Source of the DNA: Sphingomonas sp. CCH21-G11
GTDB lineage: Bacteria > Pseudomonadota > Alphaproteobacteria > Sphingomonadales > Sphingomonadaceae
Direction: 5' to 3'
Length of the DNA: 24,270 nucleotides
Assembly (NCBI RefSeq): GCF_001555965.1
Contig: NZ_LSHX01000027.1
Coordinates: 1-24,270 of the forward strand
Below, in pieces: positions 1-23,395 of the stretch (its first letter is position 1; every line of letters starts with the position of its first letter). A program made the translations under genes and the position numbers. Below the pieces are notes generated by a model, which did no database searches, had not been told where the DNA came from, and worked only from the letters and a program-made list of their open reading frames with translations.

Positions 1-13
1 GGGCGCTGCAGCT

Positions 14-210
14 TGGGGTTGCGCGCGTCCTTCGATACGCGCCCCTTCGACTGCCTGCCAAGGCAGGCGCTCAGGACAGGCTTCGCCAAGCTAAGTCGCT
101 ATTCAGGATGAGCGGGTGTGGGGTCAGATTGAAGCCAAAAAAGGACCGCTCATCCTGAGTAGCCGCTGAGCGAAGTCGAAGCGGCGTATCGAAGGACGCG
201 CGCACCCCCA
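14..210. repeat. Composite palindromic repeat downstream of leuA (copy A)
   Basis: A nested inverted repeat fills the space after the leuA stop. The outer arms are a perfect 20-bp pair at 21-40 and 184-203. An inner pair at 103-115 and 146-158 is 13 bp and perfect. Positions 42-87 carry a segment starting CCCTTCGACTGC, then GCGCTCAGGA, that recurs inside the pyrC-like gene on the opposite strand (about 14415-14460), so both belong to one dispersed family. A run of six T on the minus strand (140-145 region) could help end leuA transcription, but it does not directly follow a strong stem. No protein-coding potential is evident. Confidence 0.75.
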
Positions 211-217
211 GCCCCGA

Positions 218-3849: not shown

Positions 3850-4989
<1,140 letters not shown>

Positions 4990-5505: not shown

Positions 5506-5519
5506 GTTATTCTCCAGCT

Positions 5520-5652
5520 CCTCCCCGAGCTTGCTCGGGGAGGTGGCGGCGCGAAGCGCTGACGGAGGGGCGTCGGCGCAGCCGGCGAGCTGCGCTCGCG
5601 GCCCCTCCACCGCTCTGCGAGCGGTCCCCCTCCCCGAGCAAGCTCGGGGAGG
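5520..5652. repeat. Inverted palindromic repeat pair in ilvB-ilvN spacer
   Basis: Two perfect stem-loops with 11-bp arms CCTCCCCGAGC/GCTCGGGGAGG lie at 5520-5543 (TT loop) and 5629-5652 (AA loop). Each continues inward through a small variable hairpin to GGAGGGGC or its complement, so the element is two inverted copies of one unit. This fills nearly the whole gap between ilvB and ilvN. The sequence type is a common dispersed intergenic repeat in sphingomonads and other alphaproteobacteria. It could act as an mRNA stabiliser or partial terminator between the subunit genes; that is inference. Confidence 0.85.
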
Positions 5653-5673
5653 ACCTGTCCATCCAATCCATCA

Positions 5674-13219: not shown

Positions 13220-14572
13220 CTAGCCGCGCGCGTCGAACGCGCCGCCCTTCATCACCTTGAGCACGCGACCCTGGACGGGCAGGCCGTCGAAGGGCGTGTT
13301 GCCTGCCTTGGCGACCATCTGGTCGGCGTCGATCAACCACGGCGCGTCCGGATCGACCAGAATGAGGTCTGCGGGCTGGCCGGGGGCGAGCGTGCCGGTG
13401 TCGAGCCCCAGGATGCGCGCGGGATTGCGCGCCAGCAGCGCGAACAGCCGCTCCATCGTGATCACGCCGTCGCGCACGAAGCCCAGGCCCAGCGCGAGTA
13501 GCGTTTCGGCCCCCGCCGCACCTTCGGCCGAATCCGCGAATGGCAGCCGCTTCTGCTCCGGCCCGCGCGGGTCGTGGCCCGATGTCAGCACGTCGATCGT
13601 CCCGTCGGCCAGCGCGGCAATCGCCGCCTGCCGGTCGCTCTCGTCGCGCAGCGGCGGCGACAGATGCGTGAAGGTGCGGAAATCGCTCATCGCGATGTCG
13701 GACAGCAGCAGGTGCGCGGGCGTGATGCCACAGGTGACCGCGATGCCGCGCGCCCGTGCCGCGCGGATCAGATCGAGCCCGCGCGCGGTCGTCACCTGGC
13801 GGAAATGGATGCGCGCCCCGGTTTCCTCCGCCAGCATCAGGTCGCGGGCGATCGCCAGCGCCTCGGCGATCGCGGGCGCGGCGGGCAGGCCCAGACGGGT
13901 CGCCGTCTCGCCCGCCGTCGCCACGGCTGCACCGGCCAGCCCGCCATCCTCGGCATGCGCGATCACGGTCAGCCCGACATCGCGGGCATAGCCGAGCACG
14001 CGGCGCATGACGCCCGCATCCGCGATCCAGCGCCGCCCGGTCGCGACCGCGCGCGCGCCCGCATCCGCATTGATCGCCATTTCGGCGAGGTCGGTGCCGT
14101 TCAGTCCACGCGTCGCCGCCGCGATCGGGTGAACCCAGATCTCCGGCTTGCCCATCGCCGCGCCGCGCTGGATGATGCCGGGATCGTCGAGCACCGGCGA
14201 CTGGTCGGGCATCAAGCCGACGCGCACGATTCCGCCCGCACGGAACGCCGCCTTGTCGATCGCGAACACGCCCAGATCGACGATCGCGGGCGCGAGCAGC
14301 TTGCCCCGGCAGTCGATGGTTTCGGCTTCAGCCTTTCCAGCCTCAAAAGAGCCGTTGGTTTCGAGCGAAGTCGAGAAACCTGAGCCGGGCATACGTTTCT
14401 CGACTTCCGCCTCCGGCGGAAGTTTATCCTGAGCGCCCGCCCTGCGGGCAGTCGAAGGGCTCGAAACGAACGGGGTCTTCAGGATCATGTCTTCCTGGAC
14501 TACCAGCTCACCCGCGTGCACCCCGCCGTCGGGACAAACCAGTGTGGCATTCGTAAAGCGAACCGCGCTCAT
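13220..14572 (-). CDS. pyrC': Dihydroorotase-like protein (probable inactive PyrC'/PyrX partner of ATCase) with internal repeat
   Basis: A 450-residue amidohydrolase-fold protein whose ATG overlaps the pyrB stop (ATGA), fixing the start at 14572. It resembles dihydroorotases overall but lacks key residues. The zinc motif DxHxH is VDLGVF (residues 98-103, both His missing), and the catalytic TDHAPH is SGHDPR (331-336, Asp replaced by Gly332). Only the middle His positions ([17 protein letters not shown]) are kept. This matches the PyrC' type known from Pseudomonas, an inactive homologue needed to assemble ATCase, also overlapping pyrB. Residues 34-74 are encoded by a palindromic repeat; without them the protein would be about 409 residues. 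An active dihydroorotase should be encoded elsewhere. Automatic annotation would probably call it pyrC. Confidence 0.85.
14352..14473. repeat. Palindromic repeat inserted in frame within pyrC-like gene
   Basis: A 122-base element bounded by inverted ends CCGTTGGTTTCGAG and CTCGAAACGAACGG. Inside are a hairpin ACTTCCGCC/GGCGGAAGT (around 14404-14423) and a second, CCCGCCCTGCGGGC type, near 14437-14450. Bases 14354-14384 match 29 of 31 positions of copy B in the ilvN-ilvC spacer, and the complement of about 14415-14460 matches copy A next to leuA. It keeps the reading frame open and encodes about 41 residues, located between the N-terminal strand (ELVVQEDMI) and EAETIDCRG. Confidence 0.85.
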
Positions 14573-15570
14573 GCCCAGCCCTCCACGCCGCGCGCGCGGC
14601 GGGTCAGCACGTCCAGGCACGCCATGCGCACCGCCACCCCCATTTCGACCTGCTGGGTGATCGCCGATCGCGACGCGTCGTCGGCGACGCTCGAATCGAT
14701 CTCGACCCCGCGGTTCATTGGACCCGGATGCATGACCAGCGCATCGGGCCGCGCGCGCGCCAGCCGTGCCGGGGTCAGGCCGTAGCGGAAATGGAACTCG
14801 CGCGTCGACGGCACGAACCCGCCGTTCATCCGCTCGTTCTGCAGGCGCAGCATCATCACCACGTCCGCCCCGTCGAGCGCGGCGTCGAAATCATGGTGCG
14901 CCGTCACTCCCATGCGCGCCACTCCCTCAGGCATCAGCGTCGACGGCGCGACGACATGGACGTCGGCGGCGAGCGCGGTCAGCGCCAGGATGTTGGAGCG
15001 CGCGACGCGGCTGTGGCGGATATCGCCGCAGATCACGACGCGCTGTCCCGCGATCGATCCCTTGCGCCGCCGGATGGTCAGGGCATCGAGCAGCGCCTGG
15101 GTTGGGTGCTCGTGCCAGCCGTCGCCTGCGTTGAGCACGGGGCAGTCGACCTTGTCCGCGATCAGCTGCACCGCGCCCGAACTGCCGTGGCGGATGACGA
15201 TCACGTCGGCGCGCATCGCGTTGAGCGTGACCGCGGTGTCGATCAGCGTTTCGCCCTTCTTCACGCTCGACTGCGCGGCGTGCATGTTGACGACGTCGGC
15301 GCCCAGCCGCTTGCCCGCGATCTCGAAGGACAGGAGCGTGCGCGTCGAGTTTTCGAAGAACGCGTTGATCTGGGTGATGCCGTCGAGCCGCCGGTCGGAT
15401 GCCGCGCGCGCGCGGTTCGCCTCGACCCATTGTTCGGCCTCGTCGAGCAGGAACATGATCTCGTGCGGCTGCAGACCCTGGATGCCCGTCAGATGCCGGT
15501 GCGGGAACGCCGCGCTGCCGTTCAGGACCGTGCCGGGGCGATGATCGGAATGCTGCATCAGGGCGGTCAT
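14569..15570 (-). CDS. pyrB: Aspartate carbamoyltransferase catalytic subunit PyrB
   Basis: Catalyses carbamoyl phosphate plus aspartate to carbamoyl aspartate, the first committed step of pyrimidine synthesis. It has 333 residues, normal for the class needing a PyrC' partner. Carbamoyl-phosphate motif [13 protein letters not shown] starts at residue 71, the active-site lysine loop is SSVKKGETL (101-109), [10 protein letters not shown] starts at 155, and the aspartate domain has [10 protein letters not shown]. Start ATG 15570 ([10 protein letters not shown]) has a poor ribosome site; the ATG at 15558 is an alternative. Downstream it overlaps the dihydroorotase-like gene by 4 bases; upstream lies a repeat and then ruvX on the same strand. 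No regulatory pyrI is present. Confidence 0.96.
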
Positions 15571-15621: not shown

Positions 15622-15702
15622 GTCACCCCGGGGTCGACCCGGGTTCCCACTGTTCGTTGCGCCGGATCAGGCAGCGGGACCCCGGCGCAAGGCCGGGGTG
15701 AC
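15622..15702. repeat. REP-doublet-like inverted repeat between ruvX and pyrB
   Basis: Two facing half-units begin GTCACCCCGG on opposite strands (15622 rightward, 15702 leftward), each with its own small GC hairpin, separated by about 20 unrelated bases. The right half, read on the minus strand, closely matches the repeat at 23366-23392 downstream of gatB. It fills most of the 162-base gap between ruvX and pyrB. Confidence 0.8.
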
Positions 15703-15732
15703 GCGCTTTGATTCCGACGATGGCCCCATGCC

Positions 15733-23307: not shown

Positions 23308-23395
23308 CAGTGGATGCCGGAACAAGTCCGGCGTGACGGACGGGCTTTGGTAACCTCCCTTCACCGTCACCCCGGCCTTGTGCCGGGGTCCACTG
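23308..23395. repeat. REP-doublet-like inverted repeat downstream of gatB
   Basis: Half-units at 23311-23337 and 23366-23392 are inverted and agree at 22 of 27 positions, with outer arms CAGTGGA/TCCACTG. Each holds a CCGG-stemmed hairpin. The right half is nearly identical to the repeat between ruvX and pyrB. It lies in the 259-base gap between gatB and the PPIase gene and could end gat transcription. The remainder of the gap shows nothing else I can identify. Confidence 0.8.

Follow-up and report, generated by a model that had tools for sequence, protein, structure and literature searches.

How a palindromic repeat can lie inside a coding sequence without interrupting it is the question raised by a dihydroorotase-like (pyrC-like) gene in the window, the whole stretch of 24,270 nucleotides analysed here, whose closest loci and proteins point by homology to a sphingomonad-like host, as an earlier note on this DNA had proposed. 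The note described a single inverted-repeat element at 14352-14473, within the pyrC-like ORF and without a break of frame. These coordinates proved exact and the frame is open throughout the 122 bp, whose coding (minus) strand starts with CCGTTCG and ends with CAACGG, but the element is not single: it is a 71-bp inverted pair (24 codons with one further base) with a 51-bp module nested in one arm, the first, where it sits between GAGC and GAAG. The main features of the window are the following:

36..181, unstranded: related repeat with the CCTTCGACTGCC...GGCGCTCAGGA module and the GAGCGAAGTCGA core
4890..4967, unstranded: another copy of the family, arranged as an inverted pair in the spacer from the acetolactate synthase small-subunit gene to ilvC
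13220..14572, minus strand: host gene, encoding the dihydroorotase-like (pyrC') protein P0001, 450 aa, without HxH metal motif
14352..14473, minus strand: whole in-frame palindromic element, 122 bp, making residues 34-74 with one further base
14352..14379, minus strand: inverted second arm, GTTTCTCGACTTCGCTCGAAACCAACGG, encoding FSTSLETN and part of G
14395..14407, minus strand: second half of the CCGTTCG arm, GAAGTCGAGAAAC, encoding EVEK and the first base of R
14408..14458, minus strand: 51-bp module nested in the CCGTTCG arm, 17 codons long and similar to part of the repeat at window 1-215
14459..14473, minus strand: first half of the CCGTTCG arm, CCGTTCGTTTCGAGC, encoding PFVSS
14569..15570, minus strand: pyrB, aspartate carbamoyltransferase (NF002032, 398 bits, above the cut-off)

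The host gene directly follows pyrB, the stop of which is overlapped by its start over 4 bases. Dihydroorotase models predominate among the best 25 of 38 NCBIfam matches of its product, none of which reaches its curated cut-off, and its predicted fold matches the Aquifex dihydroorotase 3d6n (Foldseek E 6.5e-30). Since the HxH motif is absent, with DLGVFAID at the position of DIHVHLRD in the Aquifex enzyme, the protein most likely represents, as far as its sequence tells, the non-catalytic partner of aspartate carbamoyltransferase. The predicted dihydroorotase fold, the missing HxH and the adjacent pyrB make it resemble the known pyrC' homologues. Structure prediction, recommended by the note as a check, gave the extra segment low confidence: residues 34-80 have a pLDDT <50 and lie between strands 17-26 and 84-87 of an AlphaFold model of moderate confidence (mean pLDDT 67.3), run on a shallow alignment of 57 sequences. 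The insertion site is thereby modelled as probably a disordered loop between two strands. The note's surface loop is supported as far as a low-confidence loop goes, low pLDDT being no proof of a surface position.

An alignment of 14 proteins including P0001 bears out the roughly 41 added residues, since residues 34-74 are absent from 12 of the 13 relatives. The sole aligned relative with the same 41 residues is P0002, of ENA source, which differs from P0001 at 5 of 450 residues, none of them inside the segment. At the DNA level, the 1001 bp flanking the insert were matched in 289 of 295 genomes of one genus; none of the matches listed extends into the 122-bp element, and among them no strain-level empty site was found. 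On the coding strand the element is predicted to fold as RNA at -70 kcal/mol against -50.6 for shuffled versions (z -5.3; 0 of 200 shuffles as good), and on the plus strand as DNA with a z of -4.4. Rfam gave no match to window 14200-14600 at E 1, and protein-database searches with the insert peptide in frame 1 and frame 3 returned nothing at E 10 in candidate sets of just 10 and 3 proteins. Two apparent parallels were discarded: L015, suggested by its coordinates as a second pyrC insertion, has no insertion in its sequence, and the larger size of P0003 is not a product of the repeat. In this dihydroorotase-like protein about 54 residues of its own sequence are duplicated in tandem.

The element belongs to a repeat family, the unit of which is made of two inverted 28-bp arms round a short spacer and measures 71-78 bp in most copies. 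From 166 arms, picked in copies from three genomes by a pattern allowing 6 mismatches, the arm reads CCGTTCGTTTCGAGCGAAGTCGAGAAAC, with a conservation of at least 93% at 27 of 28 positions (position 17 is A in 67%) and with sharp ends, conservation dropping abruptly at the outer end to bases near background. The nested architecture of the window copy recurs in five other loci (L074, L075, L099, L306 and L315) and, degraded or doubled, in L105 and L100. A pattern for this form (1 mismatch) had 24 matches, spread over 20 of 151 genomes, and its reversed control had 6; among ten of these loci that were taken the whole architecture was present just in L306, one base short in its last arm, and in L315. 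Judged from these sequences, the nested-module form is an established but rare subtype of the family.

Within the window itself, the two likenesses reported by the note were recovered. Positions 14353-14384 match the repeat of the ilvN-ilvC spacer (4938-4969) at 94% over 32 bp, and the similarity of the 51-bp module to the repeat beside leuA, a gene name carried over from the note, is visible as CCTTCGACTGCC...GGCGCTCAGGA. The window also holds further repeats. Two CGTC-tagged monomers, CGTCACCCCGG...CCGGGGTCC, lie mutually inverted at 15677-15703 and 23365-23391 and belong to a family different from that of the pyrC insert. At 5515-5657, at the start side of the ORF for the acetolactate synthase small subunit, there is a strong inverted repeat with 32-bp arms, 94% complementary and 79 bp apart, CTCCCCGAGCTTGCTCGGGGAGG.

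The description of the element as a dispersed repeat is confirmed on a larger scale. DNA matches at E 0.001 or better were found in 21 of 33 genomes reached via pyrC loci, and frame-1 peptide matches at E 0.1 in 38 of the 151 genomes sampled from one genus, each of four genomes having more than 50 such matches with both palindrome strands counted. The 172 loci taken by DNA similarity are the best matches of longer lists, and the second DNA query, of 78 bp (L182), had itself been obtained by frame-1 peptide search. Plasmids also carry the repeat: one record matched the 181-bp query and eight, all from Sphingobium, matched the 34-bp core, the best place of which has no annotated gene in seven of them and lies in cobF in one. 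On one complete, annotated megaplasmid of Sphingobium, cobF ends in a single arm, which lies past the family match and is read as SFASSEVEKRGTEFD in frame 1. Three contigs of a viral collection (L071, L072 and L073) have the repeat as well; the values of L073 mirror those of the L140 locus, and both perhaps represent the same host region.

No candidate for a dedicated transposase emerged from the Y1 family. Around 13 Y1-transposase loci, present in 8 of 21 genomes, the fetched flanks (some shortened by contig ends) contained no core at 1 mismatch or fewer, and a Y1 match was absent from the copy-rich genomes G018, G020 and G024. The best reading is that the repeat is non-autonomous. PMC3733652 likewise reports no dedicated transposase for CGTC repeats.

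The pyrC-like gene is far from the only coding sequence invaded. Genes were called from open frames and a codon-usage score, the model of which was built for this analysis with the same loci as part of its training set, and were then named by NCBIfam. An in-frame copy within a gene so named was found in 11 of the 172 DNA-selected loci:

KdpB: L081
HpnG: L120
ValS: L149
CarA: L143, L167
lipoyl E2: L112, L165 (single arms)
HrpB: L212, L252
PutA: L256
RibD: L228

A twelfth, L221, is a probable in-gene copy on the strength of a weak Rne/Rng match below the cut-off. Among 30 loci picked by frame-1 peptide, five copies lie in genes, for DnaE, UvrA (two), GlyS beta and a biotin carboxylase, the last of which seemingly has two successive stretches of repeat-derived peptide in G036 (L206, fetched again as L333). 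Besides the pyrC' of the window, 12 kinds of host gene were thus named by NCBIfam, including UvrA, DnaE, GlyS beta and the biotin carboxylase-like gene. Of 202 elements given a codon score, 13 were flagged; because the score missed the window copy, L143, L149 and L167 and left out L112, too short to score, these in-gene counts are minima, and an element without a flag is not thereby shown to be intergenic. Where structures of relatives are available, the inserts stand out: the KdpB copy puts 24 residues where the best PDB match has 2, and when ValS, CarA and UvrA are aligned to PDB relatives, breaks or gaps appear at the insert. Moreover, residues 538-574 of the G020 ValS have no counterpart in the G019 protein, whose flanking parts are 95% and 86% identical. 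The note had associated tolerance of the insert with a non-catalytic protein, which suits the pyrC-like product with its missing metal motif but does not generalize, copies being present in the enzymes ValS, CarA and KdpB.

Ten further open-frame candidates, and some loci of the frame-2 and frame-3 peptide searches, were dropped from this set. L105, L170, L177, L085, L154, L160, the plus-strand frame of L081 and L335 (the same locus as L355) have no NCBIfam family, and L368 and L371 are not the repeat, as seen by eye from their peptides. In L080, L082 and L171 (frame 3 if extended) the family match begins after the element; these three copies, in open frames just upstream of genes, may be N-terminal extensions.

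The way in which the repeat is read in its host genes is strongly biased. All six frames of the consensus arm are free of stop codons, as are those of 6% of shuffled arms, and among 297 readings with a recognisable start, from 154 full-length DNA-selected elements in both directions, 274 are open in frame 1, 217 in frame 2 and 273 in frame 3. The bias was assessed in the ten genes not picked by frame-1 peptide alone, namely KdpB, HpnG, E2, ValS, CarA, HrpB, PutA, RibD, L221 and the carboxylase, also recovered by the frame-3 query. In nine of these the CCGTTCG arm is read in frame 1 (PFVSSEVEK...FSTSLETNG), as in the window copy, the exception being L221 (P 0.0007 for a frame-1 share of 0.359 expected from frame openness). 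Of the nine genes with an inverted arm, eight have it in frame 1 and RibD does not (P 0.0017). The arms come in reverse order in CarA and differ in frame within one copy in L221 and L228. Peptide searches of the 151 genomes in frame 3 and frame 2, from which 28 and 30 loci were fetched out of a larger number of matches, gave 2 and 5 loci flagged as in-gene; once L335/L355, L368 and L371 are dropped, the remaining L333, L351 (a repeat of L120) and L353 are read in frame 1, and no family-supported copy among the loci of these searches is read in frame 2 or 3. A plausible origin of this bias is a filter set by what folded proteins can accommodate, because the arms have a net charge of -1 in frame 1 against +4 and +1 in the other frames; the bias could instead come from a preferred phase of the target.

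Certain sites are occupied in more than one genome. One loop of ValS contains the family in G020, G024 and G018, apparently twice in the latter, a different repeat-like segment in G004 and none in 7 other genomes, one further locus being incomplete. HrpB is invaded at one place in G155, G042 and G043, and CarA and UvrA each at the same site in two genomes. Either shared ancestry or repeated entry may account for such same-site occupancy in ValS, HrpB, CarA and UvrA. The segment of the G004 loop (L302) is proline/arginine-rich, SPSPRSRGEG...LSPTLSPEGERE, where L294, L295 and L298 have the pyrC-insert family, and the ValS loci L294-L305 display a second strongly length-variable stretch just before the invaded loop, after GHRIPAW.

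These shared sites could also be taken as a sign that the insert is useful to its host and kept by selection, as a linker or an mRNA hairpin tuning pyrB-pyrC' expression or the assembly of a carbamoyltransferase-dihydroorotase complex. The strong fold predicted near the 5' end of the pyrC-like coding sequence and the integrity of the segment in P0002, in spite of 5 differences elsewhere, would agree with such a role. Nevertheless, 41 identical residues between near-identical proteins tell little, the segment is missing from nearly all aligned relatives, and a ValS loop holding the family in three genomes, another segment in one and nothing in seven fits tolerance better than a specific function, so we regard usefulness to the host as unlikely. 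Far less probable is a misassembly or chimera in the source record. Repeats are often sites of assembly error and the note had named this outcome as one that would overturn its reading; however, P0002, from another source and with its own differences, has the same insert, frame and length are kept, and analogous insertions are found in G155 and G042 on contigs as large as the genomes (2.9 and 3.4 Mb), which makes an error specific to the window improbable. That the segment is an ordinary native loop, palindromic by chance, is hardly credible: the N-terminal loop of the relatives does vary in length, but the 28-base core, matched twice in the window at 3 mismatches or fewer, recurs at 2 mismatches against 0 matches in 100 dinucleotide shuffles, and has hundreds of matches elsewhere, both palindrome strands counted.

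We thus consider, with a probability of about 0.85, that the insert in the pyrC-like gene is a copy of a dispersed, non-autonomous sphingomonad palindromic repeat, near-neutral and tolerated in a probably disordered loop. The repeat would have entered the gene between the present residues 33 and 75, and the addition of one base on entry is suggested because 122 bp make 41 codons with one further base. The length of the insert keeps the frame, the arm is free of stop codons, and other invaded genes share the frame in which it is read. Going by the open frame, the repeat may be translated as part of the protein, frame 1 (PFVSSEVEK...), the least basic of the three, presumably being the best tolerated by a folded protein, with an effect on the host protein that we infer to be near neutral.

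A broader reading, which we put forward tentatively and at somewhat less than even odds, is that sphingomonads harbour a large family of protein-invading palindromes preadapted to genes, with an arm open in six frames and a commonest length class (129 of 297 readings, 2 modulo 3) that would leave the frame of any gene intact should entry add one base, the survivors being filtered to one frame and recurring at the same loops of ValS, HrpB, UvrA and CarA across species, as a free-living counterpart of the Rickettsia system. If this is true, selection on in-gene insertions becomes measurable. In-frame repeats inside genes are a natural insertion mutagenesis, and a family that has dozens of copies, a nearly fixed frame and reused loops in bacteria that live freely and can often be cultured would make the distinction between neutral passengers and protein-changing inserts directly testable, which is hard in the obligate intracellular Rickettsia. 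It also serves as a warning for annotation, since repeats may be what lies behind additional stretches of about 24-41 residues in sphingomonad enzymes.

REPINs are dispersed units of two inverted short repeats associated with a RAYT. S. alaskensis and E. lithoralis, two hosts of the GTAG/CGTC repeats compared below, are Sphingomonadales. The sphingomonad repeat is similarly dispersed as two inverted repeats; its arm lacks a GTAG tag, and the fetched flanks of the 13 Y1 loci showed no copy of its core. Of the traits of classical MITEs, which are terminal inverted repeats with target-site duplication and a parent transposon, inverted arms were observed; the matches listed gave no strain-level empty site from which to read a duplication, and no parent transposon was found among the Y1 genes. 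A closer comparison is offered by the GTAG/CGTC repeats, described in PMC3733652 (Di Nocera et al. 2013) as small, often inverted dimers, mostly intergenic and in some cases inside ORFs of several bacteria, the intragenic hosts including UvrA, DnaE/DnaE2 and tRNA synthetases, those of S. alaskensis and E. lithoralis among the latter, with dimers encoding 20-30 aa and clusters 43-82 residues. Their host genes overlap with those of the sphingomonad repeat (UvrA, DnaE, ValS and GlyS). In contrast, its 28-bp arm contains neither GTAG nor CGTC on either strand and, by inspection, does not fit the rule given there for CGTC repeats, a terminal CGTC tag with an 8-9 bp stem beginning with AT and a 4-5 base loop. 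Two core strings were not found in the open-licence literature searched, and no title or abstract among the matches listed from these papers deals with the family. The sphingomonad repeat is a new family of a known kind, although PMC3733652, compared by its text, may already include it.

The note had singled out Rickettsia as the best-described case. Protein-invading repeats outside Rickettsia already figure in PMC3733652, and the parallel itself holds, since the Rickettsia palindromic elements (including RPE-1, RPE-4 and RPE-6) are described in PMC10969869 and PMC3733652 as lying in frame in unrelated protein-coding genes with a recurrent peptide. Compared with these elements, known here by description, the sphingomonad repeat differs by its host lineage, by its unit of 71-78 bp with inverted 28-bp arms and by the majority of its copies not being flagged as in-gene; it shares with them the in-frame presence within several unrelated genes and a recurrent peptide and frame.
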